From contig CAJNOJ010000165.1 of the NCBI GenBank assembly GCA_905250025.1, positions 124,001-188,000 on the forward strand: 64,000 bases of DNA, read 5' to 3'. Shown piece after piece: positions 25,761 to 36,915 of this stretch; position 1 is the stretch's first letter, and each line of letters starts with the position of its first letter. Made by a program: the position numbers and the translations under genes. The stretch is from Adineta ricciae (taxonomy: Eukaryota > Rotifera > Eurotatoria > Adinetida > Adinetidae). The notes beneath the pieces were generated by a model. The model saw only the letters and a program-made list of their open reading frames with translations, had not been told where the DNA came from and ran no database searches.

Positions 25761-27537
25761 AAGTATCTTAGTGGATGTGTTTTCGTCTCAGGTACTATTA
25801 TCATTCATGCGTACAAAAGAGACACATAATAACCTGATGATGAAACTTGTTTTCTGTATTATTCGATACGTTCTTTTTTTTCTCTCTCTTGATAATGAAA
25901 TAATAACAAGAAATCGTATCCTCATAACACAACATTCTAATTATCACTGATGCCTAAGATCATTTCCTGGATATTTTGTCCGTTTCTCTAATACCATTAC
26001 AGCTGCATTCATGTCCTCGATTCTGCTGGTATTACTATTGCCCTCTATCATCGCATTAATATTCCACTGGAAAAAAAAAAACAATTTTCTCTACGATAAG
26101 AACAAACTTGAGTGATGTTCTTCCCATTCTATAGCTGTCCGAGTTCTTTTTTCCTTAATAAATAGCTTTGCTGTGAGAGAAAAGAAAAGAACGAAAGAAA
26201 AAAAAAAAACCTCGAGAAAATGTCGAGGACATTTAATACATTCTGTTTGTTTATTTATTTATCCAGTATTATATTGCATTTCATTTTTTTTTCTGCTTCC
26301 ATATTTGTAACAATTAAAAACATATATGATATTTAAAGGTCCTTATTGCAAAAAAATCTATTGAATTCTGACACCTGATCTTTTTTCACTTAGCATGGAC
26401 GAGAAGAGAAACGAATAAATCCTACTACAGCTGTCTATTTCTCAAGATTAATATCGAAACGATTGCAATATTCTGTGACTTTTATATCCAGGTGTCCTCT
26501 TCGACGCAGGTTTTTTCTTTCTCGCAAACTCGATTGTCACTTAATTGAAAGACCTTGTAACGCATGACTACATTCGTATTATGTATCATTACAAGTGTAG
26601 ATTCGATATTCTTTGTTTAATCAAACATGCTTCTTTTCTCGTTTTGATCATTTTCAATTTCAAGGTTACTTAGGAAAAAGTTTTTTTCTTTAAATCAATG
26701 ACTAAGACCTTTGAGTGACGACAAAAAAGAACAAGTATAGGTTATCTTTGACGTAAGAGCACGAAAAACTGTATAATTGTATACGTGTGTAAAGCGGTTA
26801 CGATTAGGCCTTTTTCATTTTCAATGTGCTTTTTATTTGTTCGGTTCTTTGACTCCTTCCGATAGGTAGAAATTTCTATGAAGGGTGTATACACCAAAAT
26901 TTTTTACGGTATTTCTCGTCACTGAACTACTTAGACAGGAAAGAATAAGAGAGAGAGAAAAAAAAGGGGAAGGGTTGAATGCTTTCATGACAATAACATT
27001 GGTTAATAACGTACTTCGTGAAATAAACAATTTTAAAAAATATTGATTAAGAAATATTTTTTGCTTTTCTTTTTAGATTTCTTGAAATTATTCTCCACGT
27101 CACTTGAATACAAAAAAATACAAGCGCAATATTTGTTCTCAATTTATATATTAAAAAAAAAACATTTTGATTGACGTTATGTTCTTTATGTACAATATAA
27201 ACAAATTCAATTTGAAGGACAACAATTCTTATCCATCTACATCAATTCAGAAAAATTTTTGATATTCAATTTTATCATGAATCATCTCTAATATTCTATA
27301 TTGTTTGTCTACGTATTCGTTCGTTGTGTTTTTTCAACTTAGGCCAATTCTTTTTCTTTATTTGAAGTGATTTCATCGATTCATTTTTTTTCTTTCTTTC
27401 TATCTTGCGCTTTGTGATACCAAAAAAAAACTTTCTTTTTTTGTCTTTTCGTCGCCATTTTTTTCCTGTGTCTTTAGCAGTTGTCTGAAGTGAACAATTT
27501 CTCGTCAATCTTAATAGATTTCATTCATTCTTTACCG
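25761..27537. other. Long non-coding gap
   Basis: AT-rich, with many homopolymer runs (for example A tracts near 26070 and 26200). Two minus-strand frames (26833-27030 and 27296-27508) are low-complexity Lys/Arg or Leu/Ser and look random. I see no further recognisable piece of the duplicated block here. Confidence 0.5.
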
Positions 27538-30500
27538 ATGTATTTTTCTCATATTTGTTGCCGTATATTTCTTCTCAGTCTATTCATATCATTAATTGGA
27601 ACATTTTCAATCGGAAATACTCATAATGATGTCAATCAGGTAAAGTCAATTCTGTTCTTTAAGAAAGAGTTTATGAATAGATTTGATTGGCAGGTATATC
27701 GTCGACAAGTGGTAACAAGACCGGCACGAAATCGAACGGCACAATCTAAAAAGGAATTTCATAGTCCAGATCGTAATGAATTGCCGTCAATACGTGCGAA
27801 AACATATCTATTAACAATGCTACCTGTTGCTCAAGGGGATCATGTCTTCAATAGTGGTGGCGAACAAGAATGGGAAATTCAAAGAAATACTGACGTTAAA
27901 TTTGCCATATATGGTACGAAAAGAAAACAATTTCTTCTAATATAATCATTGAATGATACTTGAGAAATCGATGAACCGATCGGTAATTTAATAAGTGTTC
28001 TTTTTCTTTTGATTACCAGGGGACAATCTCGATGGTGCCGAATTATCATTTACGACTCACGCAGCTTCGTGTGCATGGGATCGAAAAGATAAAGTTTATA
28101 AATTAGAAGTTGATGAAGCTGATCCGCATGAACGTATGAGCGAACGAGCGTTCATTACTTTGAATTTACCCTATTACAATTCAACGTTGTACATGTGTAT
28201 AACACCGGTCGGTTCAAATGAAGTATTCCATCAAGGAAATCGGTATTAAATAAAGCTTTTCACATTTGATTTCTAATTGATTTTCTTCTTCTCTTTTTCG
28301 ACTAGACCAGCATTAAAGATTCGAGTTACCCGTCGTGCATTGCCTGTTTGGGCAACAATAGCCTGTTTAATCTGCCTCTTATCTTTATCAGGCCTTTTCT
28401 CCGGCTTGAATCTTGGTCTAATGTCATTAACACCTCACGATCTGATCGTCATACAAGAAGCTGGTACTGCAAGTGATCGTAAATATGCGAAAAAAATCTA
28501 TCCCGTACGAAAACATGGTAACTTTCTACTATGTACAATCCTTCTGGGCAACGTATTGGTTAACTCAACGACAACTATCCTGTTAGATACATTGATTAGT
28601 GGTGGATTTGCCGTTGCTGCCGCAACTTTAGCAATTGTTATATTTGGTGAAATCATTCCTCAAGCTGTTTGTTCACGACATGGTCTCAAAGTTGGATCGC
28701 AAACAATTCTTTTAACAAAATTGTTCATGCTTTTAACATTACCAGTATCATTTCCATTGAGTAAATTACTCGACATTGTGCTAGGTGAAGAAGTCGGTGC
28801 ACGTTATACGCGTGATCAAATGAGTGCATTGTTGAAACATACCAAAACAACAGATATCGAAGATCGAGAGAAGATCATTATGACTGGTGTGCTCAGTTTG
28901 AAAGCCAAAAAGATTCGTGATGTTATGACGAATCTAATCGATGTGTTTATGCTTGAAGCTAATCGAATTGTTGATGATGAACTTGTTTTAAACGTGCATG
29001 GTTATGGTTATTCAAGAATACCGGTTTATGAGGGACGCAGGTTTGTAACATTTTCGATGCTCTCAGATGTTTGATGGTATTGGTGAGTGTTTTTAGAGAT
29101 AACATTATCGGTTTAGTAAACATACGTGATTTTGCGTTACTTGATACGGAATCTGGAAAGTTTACTGTACGAAATATCATGAACTTTTACAAACATCGAT
29201 ATGGAACAGCTATTACACCAGATGATTCAAGTTATGACGTATTTAACTTATTCAAGAAAGGTTTGTGGAGTATAAAATTTTCTGCGAGAAGATTTTCTAT
29301 TCATTCTTGATCGTTAAGAGCAATACCATTTGGGTGTCGTGGTTGAATACGATAATAGCAGTGAAAAAGATCCGAAAGCTAAAGCTGTTGGTATTGTTAC
29401 ATTAGAAGATATCATTGAGGAGATGATTCAAGAAGAAATTATTGATGAAACTGATGTATTTAGTAAGTGTTCCATCGTAAAGTTTTGATGAATATCTATG
29501 TTTTTCTTTCTCAAAGCTGATAATCGTCGTAAAGTACGAAATATGCTTTCTCAAGCACCTGATTTCTCGGCATTTCTTCGTGCTACAACAATTGCTATCA
29601 CTAGTAAAATCTCCGCACAAATGAAAGTTGCTGTTTTTCAATTTCTTTCCACCAGTAAGTTGATGTTTCAGAGAAACAAATCAAATGAATTTTCGTTTTT
29701 GCGTTTTAGGCGTGGAGCCATTTACTGATAAATATATCTCTGCTCATATCTTAAGTCGTCTGTTAAATGTTGATCTTTATAAAGAGTTCGAATTCGATGA
29801 AGATGATGTTAAAGCTGGTAAAACGACATACATTTATGAATATGGGAAACCCGTAGACTTTTTCGTCTTAATTGTTAATGGTAAAGCCGAGTTGGAAACT
29901 GGCAAAGAGAAAATTGTTAGCGAAGTTGGTTCATTCTCTTATTTTGGCGTTAGTGCACTCTATGTAAGTTACGAGAATGACAAGCAACGAAATGAATTTG
30001 TTTCGGTTTTAGTCTTCGGAAGAAAAAATCGAAGAACTGACGCGATTAAAATCGAATAAATTTCGTCCGTACATACCTGATTTTAGTCTTCGAGTTAGCG
30101 AAGATGTACAAATTCTACGGGTGCGTCGCGTTCATTGGTTAGCTGCTGTCCGCGCAACTTATTTCGAAAATAAACAAACAGCAAATGGTGGAACACCAAT
30201 GCTCAATTCCGACGGCGAACAGATTGATTTACTAACACAAGAACTAGAAAAGGTTGATCATGTGGATCCTATAACTTCTACGGGAAGTCTTAGCGGTGGT
30301 GTCGGTCCAGATCATATCAATGCAGTTGGATCAGCACGTGAAAGAACAGCATCATTAGCACCGACGATAGCATCCGATACGGGATTGATGAATCCTGAGC
30401 AGGAAAGGCTCTTATCCCAACATTTAGCAATGGTTAATTTAACAAATTCAACTAAAACATCACTCGATAGTCCGACTGCATCCGGTCGAAACACTCCGGT

Positions 30501-30606
30501 CTTATCTGAGAAGCAAAAACGTCAAATAATCCGTTCCGACGTACCTTCAACGCCACCACCACCATCGTTAACAGGAAGTTCATCAAAAAATCGCTCATTG
30601 ACTTAA
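27538..30606 (+). CDS. CNNM-family metal transport mediator (cyclin M, ACDP)
   Basis: Membrane protein of the CNNM2/CNNM4 family, implicated in magnesium efflux. The signal peptide ([20 protein letters not shown]) is chosen because it begins the first real ATG, at 27538. An extracellular domain follows ([20 protein letters not shown]). The DUF21 membrane domain is [37 protein letters not shown] and [17 protein letters not shown]. The CBS pair includes [38 protein letters not shown] and [20 protein letters not shown] cyclic-nucleotide-binding-homology domain carries [12 protein letters not shown] and [17 protein letters not shown]. The Ser/Thr/Pro-rich tail ends SSSKNRSLT. About eight exons. 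The conserved set of domains is complete. Confidence 0.93.
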
Positions 30607-31603
30607 AACTTGAAAAGCAAAAAACAAGATTCTAGATGTGTTTGTCTGTGTATATATATAGGCCAGTATTTGGAATGTAATTCTACATTTTGTTTTCCTT
30701 TCTCCATAGAACCAGTTTTGTCTTAGTATTCGGTTTTTGTTAGTTCCTTTTTAGTTTCGATTGTTTGCTTTGTTTTTATTGTTGGATCTGACCGATGAGG
30801 AGATCAGTATGTTTTGTTGTCTTCTTCTTCTTCTTCTTCTTCTGTTTTTTTTTTATTAGTTTTCAACCGTTGAAAGAAGTCTTAGAATCATTTAGTATAC
30901 ATCCAATAATTTTTCTTATATTTTTTTGCTTTTTTTTCTAAAATATATGCACTATTTTAAATGAATTTCTACGAAAAAGTTCAAGTCAAAACTTTGCCCA
31001 TTGCTTCTACTTCTGTATCGATGAATAATTCGAGGTTTGCACTATGTAAGAATGTCATTAGATGAGTAACTGACCTTTTCTCTCCATTACATTCAAGTAT
31101 AACATTAATGTCAACATGAAAACAAACCGAACTGATATTTTGCCATACTAAATTAGCTACAACGATATCAATTAGTTTTCTAATTAGTTCAAGATACCAT
31201 CGACAACGTTTTCAAAGAAGACGAAAACAAGAATGTTCACCCGAAACGTGAGACATGACATGAGAACAACGAAATCCTTGCGAATATTTGATTGCTTAAG
31301 TCAGTGACAACATTCTTAATCTTGCTGATATAAACATGTACATATAATCTTCGGTAAATTTTAAAATACTTATCAAAGTGAACATCTGGGAAGTGTATTC
31401 ATTCCGTGTGCTATATAAACTTTCAATTCTTGATTTTCATGTGAAATGTTTTCTTCGTGAAGAAAAACGAAGACAATTGATGATTGAAATTTGTAGCGAA
31501 TACGTCATAGAGGATTTCGCTTTTCGACAAACAAGAAAAAAAAGAATGAGCGAAAAGATCAAAGCTGAACAAACGATCATTCTTTCGTGCGCACATCAAA
31601 CAA
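30607..31603. other. Intergenic stretch
   Basis: CNNM 3' UTR, TATATATATA tracts, a (CTT)n microsatellite and AT-rich sequence leading to the BrkB-like gene. A TATA-like CTATATAAAC at about 31410 lies about 190 bp before the next ATG. A frame at 31378-31653 overlaps the gene start but has no ATG start and no homology. Confidence 0.5.
30821..30843. repeat. (CTT)n microsatellite
   Basis: About eight tandem CTT units, followed directly by a T run, in the CNNM downstream region. Confidence 0.85.
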
Positions 31604-32527
31604 ATGCAGTCGACGAATACAAACATCGAACTGTTTCAAGCAGTCAAAACTGAAACCAAACCTTATCGTTTGTTTTTTCAAAAACTCAAACATGACTGGT
31701 CATTCGTCTTCGCTAGTATGTTAGCGTTCAATTTTCTCATCGCACTTCTGCCCATGGCGATGATCTTTTTCGGTATATCAGCGCTCATTCTTGGAAATAA
31801 TTCTCATTTACAAAATCATTGGAAGAATATGATCATTAACGCATTTCCTCCGAAAGCAAACGAAGGTTTGCGTGAAATTATTAATATGGCGTTTGTGAAG
31901 TTATATCAAGATGCAGGAATTATCCTGACATTTGGCATCTTATTCGCAATTCTTGGTTGCTTAAGATTATTCGTAGCAATTGATCGATCGTTGACAATTA
32001 TCTATCGACTTGAAGAACGAACATTCGTGAAAAAGTATCTTCTAGCAATTAAAATGCTGTTACTTTTTCTTATTCTCATTCCATTGATGATCGTTGCTTC
32101 ATCAATGCCATCCATTCTCTTACATAAGATCGCGAATGTCGCGGGTCGCTTTGGAACATATGTTCTCGGAATAATCACGAGTTTTGCAATCACATTTCTC
32201 CTATTTGAAGTGATTTACTTACTAATACCAAATAGAAAGATGACATTTGAACATACGTGGCGTGGAGCGATACTCGTTTCCGGTGCGTTGCAACTCTTTA
32301 TGATTCTCTTTCCACTTTACGTTCGCAACTGTTTAACAAGTTATACAGGTCAAATTGGTTTTGCCATTATCTTAATCTTATTTCTGTTTTATTTCGCAAT
32401 TTTACTTCTTCTCGGCGCACAAATCAATGCGTTTGTCTATGAACATATTCAACCGTTACCCGTTCCCCTCGGTACATTTCTTAATCAATTCATGGAACAC
32501 GCTCACCAACAAACTGAGTCAATTTGA
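31604..32527 (+). CDS. YihY/BrkB family inner-membrane-type protein, bacterial type
   Basis: Intronless frame of 307 residues with six hydrophobic segments. The family hallmarks are a basic N-terminal helix before the first TM (FFQKLKHDWSFVFASMLAFN, FLIALLPMAMIFFGISAL), IINMAFVKLYQDAGIILTFG and LFVAIDRSLTIIYRLEERTF. The late TM block is IPNRKMTFEHTWRGAILVSG, LFPLYVRNCLTSYTGQIGFA and LLLGAQINAFVYEHIQPLP. YihY/BrkB proteins are widespread in bacteria, were once misnamed RNase BN, and have poorly defined function. They are not standard animal genes. Absence of introns in an intron-rich neighbourhood supports recent horizontal acquisition. The codon style and AT content look adapted to the host by eye. 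Confidence 0.88.
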   Translation: MQSTNTNIELFQAVKTETKPYRLFFQKLKHDWSFVFASMLAFNFLIALLPMAMIFFGISALILGNNSHLQNHWKNMIINAFPPKANEGLREIINMAFVKLYQDAGIILTFGILFAILGCLRLFVAIDRSLTIIYRLEERTFVKKYLLAIKMLLLFLILIPLMIVASSMPSILLHKIANVAGRFGTYVLGIITSFAITFLLFEVIYLLIPNRKMTFEHTWRGAILVSGALQLFMILFPLYVRNCLTSYTGQIGFAIILILFLFYFAILLLLGAQINAFVYEHIQPLPVPLGTFLNQFMEHAHQQTESI

Positions 32528-33017
32528 CTGTGAACTATCCAAAAGAGAGATAGAATTTTTATTTATCATAACTCATTCTCTGCTGTTTGAAAAACTCATT
32601 TATTCAGATTCACATTGTCAATCATATCTTTTTCAACTAGAGTAGTTATTTTCGCTTCGATTGAAATCATGGATGTGTTCGTATCATAGATCTTTAGTTT
32701 TTTTTGCAAAAGATGATTTCATGTTCAACTGGCTTTCATCTATATTTAGTTCCTTTATTCTTTGTGCTAAGAGAAATTGCTCCGGCTCATTATTAGCTAT
32801 CACAGATCAGTGAATATGGTTTTCAGATTGATCTAGACGATAAAAAAAAAGAAACGTATCCGACGACTTCATAATGGTTTTTCTAGAAGGCGAGATGTGG
32901 TGATGGTTCTTTATTCAATTCAATTTGTATAAACAAATGACGATTCAGAGAATAACATCATGACAAAAATCGAACTGCGTAGAGTTTATTATTCTTTTTT
33001 GAAATAGAATTTCTCAT
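32528..33017. other. Intergenic stretch between convergent genes
   Basis: 3' flanks of the BrkB-like gene (+) and the neuropeptide gene (-). AT-rich, no coding signal. Confidence 0.6.
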
Positions 33018-34193
33018 CTATTTGTCATTGTCATCAGCTGGTTTGGATTTATGAAAACGAACGTGATAATGATCACGTGACATGTGTGGATGGTGATATT
33101 GTTGATCATTGATACGACGTTTGAAAAAATCATTTCCAGATACGGAATCAAGACTCTAGAAAACGAATGTTGTTAAGCGAAGATTTCAATGTCATGATTT
33201 ACTTTTTTGAAGAAATCGTTACCATTCAATGAATCCAAACTCTGAAAGAAAGAATTTTTTGTAAGAAAATCTCGCTTTTCCACTGAGGAAGTATTACTTT
33301 CTTGAAGAAATCATTACCGGACACTGAATCCAAGCTCTAGAAAACTGTACATAGCGAGAACGAAAGACAAACAGTCAATCAAACAAACTTTTTTCAAGAA
33401 ATCCGAGCCTGATACCGAATCTAACGTACGTTTCTAGGTGCGAAAATAAATACTTTACAAAACAAGACGTCAATCTAAAATTAGATTACTTCTTCACGTT
33501 TGAAAAAATCATTACCAGTGAGTGAATCAAGACTCTGCAAATAGGTGTAAATAGTCAAGTGTCAAATCATAATGAATTTTACCTTTTTGAAGAAATCTGA
33601 ACCGGAGAGTGAATCAAGTGTTCGTTTCTGAAAAAAAGGACAAACAAGCCATAAAATCGATCCTATGTCCTTCATTCTTACTTCATCATTGCGTTTGAAG
33701 AAATCATTGCCTGAAAGACTGTCAAGACTCTACAAAAGTCGACAAGTTCACAATAAGACATTCATTTCGCCGTGTACATACTTTCTTAAAGAAATCCGAA
33801 CCAGATACTGTGTCAAGTGTTCGTTTCTAAAAGCAGAAAACATGATGAGAAATTATTCGTTCTAAATGAAGTTTGTTGTTATTCCATCGATCGAGAAGTA
33901 CTTCAGATTATATTGATTGATTCCATTTCGGATAATAATAGATCTAACTTGATTATATATATCTAAGCAAAACAGGAATGACCTAGGTCAGCATCGTCTG
34001 TGATTTTACTACCCACTGAGTATATTCGAAACAAATAATGAAGTCAATTTACGCAAATACTGTTAATAATTGAAATAAAAGACAAGTTCACATGAACACT
34101 CACTTTTTCTTCTTCACCATTGATACCCACGAAGTAGATGGTAATCATCATTAGTGCAACAGTCATTATCGACATATTGATAGAAATCGTCAT
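33018..34193 (-). CDS. Multi-copy neuropeptide precursor, (S/T)LD(S/T)-type, one peptide per exon
   Basis: Secreted peptide prohormone. Exon 1 encodes a signal peptide (MSIMTVALMMITIYFVGING) and EEEK. Seven mini-exons of about 39-48 nt and a final longer exon then each encode one copy. In order the copies are TLDTVSGSDFF, SLDSLSGNDFF, TLDSLSGSDFF, SLDSLTGNDFF, TLDSVSGSDFL, SLDSVSGNDFF, SLDSLNGNDFF and SLDSVSGNDFF. All are separated by KK or KR dibasic sites, some with acidic NDE or EE spacers. Every intron is phase 0 and about 50-60 bp. The last exon continues RRINDQQYHHPHMSRDHYHV and ends KPADDNDK. The LDS-x-G core recalls pedal-peptide/orcokinin peptides, but the DFF end differs, so the family is uncertain. 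An acceptor-like TTCCTTACAG 12 bp before the ATG suggests an upstream non-coding exon or a trans-splice site. Confidence 0.85.
33120..33829 (-). repeat. Tandem array of eight homologous mini-exons
   Basis: Homologous exon segments at about 33120-33155, 33204-33242, 33299-33337, 33390-33435, 33489-33534, 33584-33629, 33684-33731 and 33782-33829. Odd-numbered copies (from the 5' end of the gene) start KRT and contain SGSDF; even-numbered copies start SL and contain GNDFF. This suggests amplification as a two-exon unit, followed by single-exon duplication of the last copies. The intervening introns are diverged. Confidence 0.8.
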
Positions 34194-35124
34194 GTAGTTG
34201 TGGTAGTACTGTAAGGAAATAGAAGACAACTATTACTTGGTCTTGACGCTCAATTTGTATTTATATATATAGAGAGAGAGATATTGTCTCTAAATAATTT
34301 TTCTATAGAATTCCGTTCAGAGAGAAGCAGAGAACTTCTCTTTCTGTTCAAGGGAACTTGAAGAGAAAAACATTGGAATAACGAATCAGAAGGCGAAATA
34401 GGTTGGAAATCAATCACATGAAAATATTTGCTTGTTGTTTTGTGCTTGAATATATACTAATACAAGATGAGAGAAGCTCATGAGTACATCACGCTCTTCT
34501 TCTAATTGAATCAATAGTTTTCCGAAGGTGATTTCAGCTTAGATTTCCGTGACGCAAATAGAATTAGAAAACATTTATGTTCATCCGTGTGTTTTGATTT
34601 CAAAGTATATATGCGCAAATCTTTTCTTAGCGTTTGATCAATTAAGCTGAAAAAGACAAAATCTCATTTGTCTCCTCGTTAAAAAAAATCTACACGAACA
34701 CTTATAATTATCGTCGAAAAAGATTGATGTCTTTTTCGCCGTCGATTAGCAATACACAAGAAGAACATTCTCCTGATTTGTAATCGTACTTTCCTTCGAT
34801 ATGAACGATTTGTTATGGACGTGATTGATGTCAAAGAAAACCTAATGAGTTTTGTCATTTAATCGGCAAAATATATTCGAATTGATTACATCTATATTCA
34901 TCTGCAAACGGGATCATAGTACGAAGAACTAATTCTTCGAAAAACTGTCAAATCGATGGCATGCTTGTTCATCAAGTAGATGGCAATAAAAGAAGCAAAA
35001 TAGCGCCTTTCTATGACCTCCGACTGCGCTTGCGTGTGTTCATGTTCATAGACACAGATTAAAACAACAACAGTAAGAAGACATAATTAAATCAAACATA
35101 GTCAAATGGGAATTGAAAGGTCAG
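34194..35124. other. Intergenic stretch
   Basis: Upstream region of the neuropeptide gene and 3' flank of the GPCR. It contains a TATATATATAGAGAGAGAGA tract near 34261-34281. No coding sequence seen. Confidence 0.55.
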
Positions 35125-36181
35125 CTACACAGTTCCCAAATGATGATTATCAACAAAATAATTTACGATTTGAATAGTGAATAAATAGAGTTTATATAAC
35201 AAGCGTTGTAGTTCTTGCCGAAAGATCGTGCCCGTTAATGTGTAAATGTAAAACGCACAGCAGCAATTAATATATAGTATAAGTGCGGAAATCTACAGAA
35301 AGAAAAGAAAAGGTTTAGTGGAAGGCGAGACGAAAGATTCGACTTACTTGAAAATAGAAGTTTTCTATTGTTACATCTAGTGACGTTTTCATCCGATTGA
35401 ATGTAAATGTTGTGTAACCTTTTGATATACCCGAAGGTGTAACACAAATGAAGAATACAATAATTTGAATTAAAAGCATAGTGATCATTTGTCGATCTCG
35501 TTTTCTTATTAGATGATATCGATGTCGACTTTGAACTGTAACCGGATTGACATGTTGACGGATCTTTTGCGCATTTTTTACTGTCAACCAACCAAATGTT
35601 ATCATTAAAATCGGCGGAATGATCGAAAAAAGTATCAAAAACAATATGTCATTGAACATCTGGCAAACTGTATTCGGACAAAAGCAGTTCAATGGAAATT
35701 GAGTGGTAACTATAGTATAACAATAAAATGCTTGACAGTAGAGCAGACAAAAGAAAAGAACAGTCCAGAAAATCATACGATGAGCAACTGATATTCTACT
35801 AAATGCACGTATATGTACGTTTGTATTCGACGATGCCCAACGATCAATACTAGCATAGACGAGAAACAATGCGCTCAACGCTAAACACATATATGTAACA
35901 AAGTAACGAAATTTACAAACATAAATATTCGATAAAGTTGGGTCAAGACTGTAACCGGAAAGTAATCTTGTTAGAAGACCACACCATAGGCAAAACATAT
36001 TAGCGATTGACGCAGAAAGGAAATAGAACGCGCAGGAATTGTTTCTCAGTGCTCTTTGTGCTAATATGATAATGCTGAATAGATTGCCAATCGTACCGAA
36101 GACTAAGAGAGGTATAGGTATAAAACGATTGAAAGATGCAGCCAGGCGGATGTAATAGACGATAGTCGTGTTGTCTGGCAT
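35125..36181 (-). CDS. Rhodopsin-type seven-transmembrane receptor (orphan GPCR)
   Basis: About 333 residues in two exons (intron at about 35298-35347). The N-terminus MPDNTTIVYYIRL has a glycosylation site. TM1 is IPLLVFGTIGNLFSIIIL with the GN motif, TM2 SCAFYFLSASIANMFCLWCG and TM3 CKFRYFVTYMCLALSALFLV. TM3 ends SIDRW, where most receptors have DRY. TM4 to TM6 follow, with LIRKRDRQMITMLLIQIIVF and FFICVTPSGIS. TM7 in the second exon is ISALILYINCCCAFYIYTLT in place of a classical NPxxY, then FRQELQRLLY. This divergent class A type is reminiscent of peptide-receptor-like GPCRs. The start at 36181 is preferred; an in-frame ATG at 36250 would add 23 residues. The gene lies on the same strand as the neuropeptide gene and about 0.9 kb upstream of it. 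Confidence 0.85.
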
Positions 36182-36915
36182 GAGTGAAAAACTTTTTTTT
36201 GTAAATGAATGAACTCGATGGAAATGTAGGAGAATATGGGAAAAATGCATTACGTGACACTGTCAAAACTACTGTCACATACATGAAAATTATTGTGTTG
36301 TATAAGAAGAACGAAGATGTACTGAATTGTTTAATTAATCAGCACTCTGTGAGACTCCGTCTGTTCAGACGAAAGAATAGAAAAACGTTGGCCTTTTAAT
36401 TAATAATTCAGTAATTGATTGTATCGATACTTTGAAGAGGTATGATTTTATTAATACTGCTGAGAATAGATACCGAGGTTCGAAAACTGACCGCAGATGT
36501 TGAAAACATGATATATTCTTTTCTCCGTAGGTGAAGTTTTAATTAGATATGCATGATATAATTATGTGTAATAAGTCTTATTATGTAGTTCCTCGATGAC
36601 AGCTTTTATAGACTGAAAATCTTAAAGTTGATGAACTTCATAATACGATTTTTATTAATCATTCGAGAATTTAGAGCATAGTTTAACACGGTTAGATACA
36701 CATGAATATCAATCGGATTTCTAATCGATTTGATTGTTCAAGGAAATTTGGTAAACTCAAATGGTGCGTAAAACTTCTGTTGGCAGTATTCTTCATCAAT
36801 TAGTTTTCATCTACCCGACAAACTCGAACACGAGTTTCGAATATAAATGATTTCAGAGAAGAATGATGTTCTCCACTGGCATCAACATTCAATGCCAATC
36901 TGTATCTTTTCCTCT
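36182..36915. other. Intergenic stretch
   Basis: GPCR upstream region and TTLL12 3' flank. AT-rich with no coding signal. Confidence 0.55.

Follow-up and report, generated by a model that had tools for sequence, protein, structure and literature searches.

Multiple copies of a neuropeptide are often encoded on one exon of the precursor gene (PMC2575521). Among the precursors with an LDS-type peptide core, those related to FCAP have been reported from three species of Rotaria, with peptides of a fixed length of 11 residues that occur in eight copies in two of the species and in nine copies in one (De Oliveira et al., 2019; PMC6425005). The FCAP peptides of the mollusc Hermissenda are GLDSLGGFNVHGGW, GLDSLGGFQVHGGW and GLDSLGGFHVHGGGW (PMC8735849), and the pedal peptide of Aplysia is PLDSVYGTHGMSGFA (PMC5656890). 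In echinoderms, members of the pedal peptide/orcokinin family were described by an Asp-X-Leu core, a late aromatic residue and a Phe near the N-terminus (PMC9793003). For Syndermata and other Gnathifera, deeper sampling of neuropeptides is said to be lacking (PMC8557429), and in the literature surveyed, mainly titles, the beginnings of abstracts and single passages, neither a rotifer FCAP gene structure nor a precursor whose copies each occupy a separate phase-0 mini-exon was found.

The stretch of 64 kb analyzed here (the window) carries on its minus strand (34193-33018) a gene with a counterpart on contig C134, which is treated as its homeolog. The analyses confirm it as a real and conserved gene, predicted to encode a small secreted signalling peptide of neuropeptide type. 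Exons were first read by eye and then placed by script; the resulting model, built from genomic DNA, predicts a precursor of 177 residues and comprises the following features:

34104..34193, minus strand: signal exon 1, 90 nt; start codon and predicted signal peptide, ending in GEEEK at a phase-0 boundary
33827..34103, minus strand: intron 1, 277 nt, GT-AG, phase 0
33782..33826, minus strand: peptide exon 1, type A, 45 nt; KR TLDTVSGSDFF KK
33682..33729, minus strand: peptide exon 2, type B, 48 nt; SLDSLSGNDFF KR NDE
33583..33627, minus strand: peptide exon 3, type A, 45 nt; KR TLDSLSGSDFF KK
33490..33534, minus strand: peptide exon 4, type B, 45 nt; SLDSLTGNDFF KR EE
33389..33433, minus strand: peptide exon 5, type A, 45 nt; KR TLDSVSGSDFL KK
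33298..33336, minus strand: peptide exon 6, type B, 39 nt; SLDSVSGNDFF KK
33203..33241, minus strand: peptide exon 7, type B, 39 nt; SLDSLNGNDFF KK
33018..33155, minus strand: peptide exon 8, type B, with tail and stop, 138 nt; SLDSVSGNDFF KR RINDQQ..., the tail being His-rich and 32 residues long
34258..34271, minus strand: TATA-like stretch upstream of the start codon, read by eye and of presumed function; a similar stretch lies upstream of the homeolog

All eight introns have GT-AG borders and lie in phase 0. The initial annotation had placed one peptide on each phase-0 exon between 33018 and 34193, which is confirmed exactly, and its peptide formula (S/T)LD(S/T)-x-(S/T/N)G-(N/S)DF(F/L) fits all eight copies in the window. 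The exon size it gave, 39-48 nt, holds for the first seven peptide exons but not for the last (138 nt), and an intron size of about 50-60 bp agrees with the seven introns of 47-56 nt but not with the 277 nt of the first. The intron after peptide exon 5 has the donor GTTTGT, as has the homeolog at the same position. A hydrophobic core is present in the signal exon, with a best 12-residue mean Kyte-Doolittle value of 2.29 in the window and 2.88 in the homeolog. Each peptide measures 11 residues and is followed by KR or KK (8/8 in the window, 9/9 in the homeolog). In type A exons (peptides 1, 3 and 5) the peptide is preceded by KR and followed by KK. Type B exons hold a site on the C-terminal side of the peptide only, which is KK, KR with a mostly acidic spacer (exons 2 and 4) or, in the last exon, KR leading into the tail.

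The array is readily told from chance. When both strands of the 64 kb were searched with a position matrix of 39 nt, derived solely from the nine copies at C134, eight matches with scores of 31.2-44.1 were obtained, which lie exactly at the eight peptide exons, the next-best site in the window scoring 14.0 and the maximum in 100 dinucleotide-preserving shuffles being 19.3. No relic exon above shuffle level was found in the window, and the best stray site in the scanned 10 kb of C134 scored 9.0. Inverted repeats (two pairs in the gene region of the window and one at C134, 77-87% complementary) are taken as chance. No tRNA was found in the 64-kb window, nor was there a match to a tentative spliced-leader pattern. 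Pfam gave no meaningful match for the precursor; a phage model reached its cut-off on the homeolog only by summing short repeats, no single stretch passing, and was discarded together with all matches below cut-off.

A genome search with the joined window peptides yielded nine matches, all of them on C134 and on C165, the contig of the window. The C134 gene (218088-216910, minus strand) is built on the same pattern and has nine peptide exons. All nine of its introns are GT-AG and phase 0, and the predicted precursor has 182 residues. The proposed multi-copy precursor of neuropeptide type, with one peptide per phase-0 exon, is thus supported by the exon model at both loci. Comparing copy number between homeologous loci, as the initial annotation had suggested, gave eight versus nine, the difference being one whole exon, namely a KK-ended type B exon. 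Judged from the two gene models, copy number evidently changed when an entire phase-0 exon was gained or lost.

A comparison of window frames of at least 60 codons with a 30-kb piece of C134 revealed a common gene order over about 9 kb, consisting of a multi-exon gene (window 27478-30603), a BrkB-family gene, the neuropeptide gene and a 7tm_1 receptor. The flanking BrkB-family and 7tm_1 genes show 59-60% protein identity between the loci. Outside window 27478-36262 no frame had a match in the 30 kb of C134 at 1e-6; judging by these 30 kb, the block common to both loci is short. We infer that the C134 locus is homeologous rather than allelic or a local duplicate.

Two of the neighbours deserve a remark of their own. 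The BrkB family is mainly bacterial; its member here (PF03631, window 31550-32527, plus strand) is 59% identical to its homeolog and has 25 matches in the genome, some of them several per gene. Together with the duplicated block, this gene of bacterial type points to a bdelloid rotifer as the probable source. The 7tm_1 receptor (window 35315-36262, minus strand; Pfam was run on the window copies) adjoins the neuropeptide gene and is conserved at C134. The idea that it is the cognate receptor is unsupported, given that other neighbours are equally conserved and that the receptor query has at least 127 matches in the genome, itself included.

Between the loci, the eight matched 11-residue cores differ by 35 synonymous and 10 nonsynonymous changes (dS 1.28, dN 0.05; dS 1.30 and dN 0.06 if the sixth window copy is paired with homeolog copy 7 instead). 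Core dN/dS is about 0.04, and purifying selection on the peptides is strong; signal and tail align poorly between the loci. With this value, and with a frame that stays open through all nine exons of the window gene and all ten of the homeolog, a decayed or untranscribed repeat array can be given hardly any credence. The second reading on which selection bears is that of a secreted micro-exon gene like those of schistosomes, which would make variant surface or gland proteins. Such genes are described as combining a signal peptide with very small symmetric exons (PMC4350168), and the present gene shares both characters; its dibasic sites, however, are regular, dibasic peptide repeats not being mentioned in the passages of that source that were used, and its mature part is slow-evolving, whereas mature regions of the schistosome genes evolve fast, with dN/dS above that of their signal peptides (PMC4350168). 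We consider this reading very improbable.

The synonymous sites also bear on the age of the array. Mean pS is 0.63 between positional partners, compared to 0.76 and 0.84 among copies within a locus, and since partners are closer to each other than copies of the same locus, the peptide array was probably already present when the two loci split. Six of the eight window copies have their positional partner as the nearest copy in the homeolog. The exceptions are window copy 7, nearest to homeolog copy 7, and window copy 8, nearest to homeolog copy 4, their assigned partners being copies 8 and 9; window copy 7 was paired with homeolog copy 8 by the LNG core, although homeolog copy 7 is closer in nucleotides. 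Homeolog copy 9, in turn, is nearest to homeolog copy 6. These three copies with nearest non-partners count against a simple one-to-one history. Over 33 sites, 300 bootstraps recovered pair 2 in 276, pair 3 in 169, pair 1 in 119, pair 5 in 105, copy 7 with 8 in 102 and pair 6 in 53 replicates, and pair 4 as well as copy 8 with 9 in none, so that pair 2 is the only partner pair with more than weak support. A recent origin of the extra C134 exon was rejected, as its flanking introns are unlike (H6 vs H7 z 1.39; H7 vs H8 z 0.65), and gain at C134 cannot be told apart from loss in the window copy.

From the alternation of two exon types it had been suggested that the array was amplified as a two-exon unit. 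At synonymous sites this finds no support, the observed values being reached by 11544 and 13703 of 20000 label shuffles; the two types are distinct in their amino acids, but their synonymous codon choice does not differ. In neighbour-joining bootstraps the six type A copies do group, in 214 of 300, but these used all sites, including the amino-acid differences by which type A is defined.

All internal exons are symmetric, and the reading frame survives any internal skip. To this extent the statement of the initial annotation that any exon can be skipped stands; it fails where processing is concerned, for a cleavage site is lost whenever peptide exon 1, 3 or 5 is left out. Single skips lose the dibasic site at the junction in three of seven internal peptide exons of the window and in three of eight of the homeolog, which are the type A exons both times, while peptide exons 2, 4, 6 and 7 leave a dibasic junction when skipped. 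It is therefore conceivable that the gene serves as an alternatively spliced cassette, in which different cells would produce different peptide mixtures: type B exons would be skipped or included per cell and gained or lost in evolution, and type A exons would form a fixed frame that gives the N-terminal KR. Such a cassette predicts that the loci differ by a KK-ended type B exon, which matches the exon observed, and alternative splicing has been described for the multi-exon, same-phase periviscerokinin genes of beetles (PMC6585902). Against it stand the cleavage sites lost with exons 1, 3 and 5 and the length of the introns. Short introns (here about 47-60 nt) favour intron definition, under which exon skipping is uncommon. 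The introns, moreover, are little conserved and hardly align between the loci: three of nine positional comparisons exceed z 2, as do several non-positional pairs, and the best of 136 pairs reaches 3.48. Altogether we regard a cassette tuned by splicing as rather unlikely, though less so than the micro-exon reading.

We hold with considerable confidence that the locus is a secreted neuropeptide precursor gene of the LDS type (FCAP/pedal-peptide-like), and very probably the same as the rotiferan FCAP-related precursor reported from Rotaria. Peptides of 11 residues in eight or nine copies are common to both (PMC6425005). The Rotaria precursors were reported mainly from transcriptomes, and the comparison concerns length, copy number and probable taxon, not sequence (PMC6425005); the agreement in these three respects is so close that both are taken as the same precursor. 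The novelty of the peptide implied in the initial annotation is in consequence probably mistaken, given that FCAP-related peptides of this length, with these copy numbers, are reported from Rotaria (PMC6425005).

Molluscan FCAP likewise starts with xLDSLxG and derives from a multi-copy precursor, and five of the first seven positions are common to Hermissenda FCAP1 when aligned by eye (LDSLGG core). It differs in ending with GW, as the three Hermissenda peptides do, instead of DFF, and in its usual length of 13 residues (PMC6425005). The C-terminal GW is absent here, since all 17 peptides of both loci end in DFF or DFL. The Aplysia pedal peptide, with an xLDSVxG start, also has five of the first seven positions in common (by eye), but it comprises 15 residues and ends in SGFA (PMC5656890); orcokinin (NFDEIDRSGFGFN) is little alike. 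The pedal-peptide likeness noted earlier is accordingly fair, yet no closer than that to FCAP. The remark that the DFF C-terminus is distinctive agrees with the two examples compared, DFF being found neither in the Hermissenda FCAP nor in the Aplysia pedal peptide. With regard to the echinoderm features, a late Phe is present in all peptides, and Asp-Ser-Leu in four of eight in the window, with Val in the other four, and in nine of nine in the homeolog; the early Phe is lacking, Ser or Thr followed by Leu taking its place in 17/17. Genome searches with molluscan FCAP, and with pedal peptide and orcokinin, found nothing, the window gene included, so the family link rests on the short N-terminal core.

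For a neuropeptide precursor, the following course would be expected. The gene would be transcribed and its nine exons spliced together, and the precursor would enter the secretory pathway, where prohormone convertases would cut at the KR and KK sites and a carboxypeptidase would trim the basic residues. Eight peptides of 11 residues (nine at the homeolog), of two similar types, would be released, presumably to act on a receptor; because no Gly precedes the basic sites, they are predicted to be free acids. In the pedal peptide/orcokinin family, amidation is absent in starfish and mostly absent in sea urchin, but present in sea cucumber (PMC6586643).

With each copy on a separate phase-0 exon and two loci one exon apart, the array provides a clean natural case for peptide dosage by exon gain and loss, and also a case for asking whether splicing tunes peptide mixtures.

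Other precursors in the genome were sought with made-up amidated tandem queries, which are blind to introns. Two loci that look near-identical (L019, L020) encode a precursor of FLRFamide type, all eight copies of which lie in a single frame running without interruption to the stop; unlike the homeologous flanking genes at the neuropeptide locus with their 59-60% identity, they are perhaps alleles or the result of a recent duplication. Two further precursors likewise occupy a single uninterrupted frame each: L021, whose frame runs from 1339 on the reverse strand, carries PYRFG three times and HFRLG once, and L022 (plus frame from 1237) carries repeats like DLPNEAVLLGKR, with eight M/L-L-G copies. 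L023 had no frame passing the filter, and L017 and L018 look like non-coding repeats. As tandem queries blind to introns favour single-exon precursors, all that follows from the contrast is that not every precursor in this genome has the mini-exon plan.

Judged by the gene models, a precursor gene in which each peptide copy has a tiny exon to itself is an unusual and notable variant. The periviscerokinin (Capa) genes of beetles resemble it in that their peptides are spread over several coding exons with introns of one phase, and in that exon number varies between species (PMC6585902). They differ in belonging to another peptide family, in having four to seven coding exons and in the phase of their introns, which is 1 in the beetles and 0 at both loci described here (PMC6585902 for the beetle genes).
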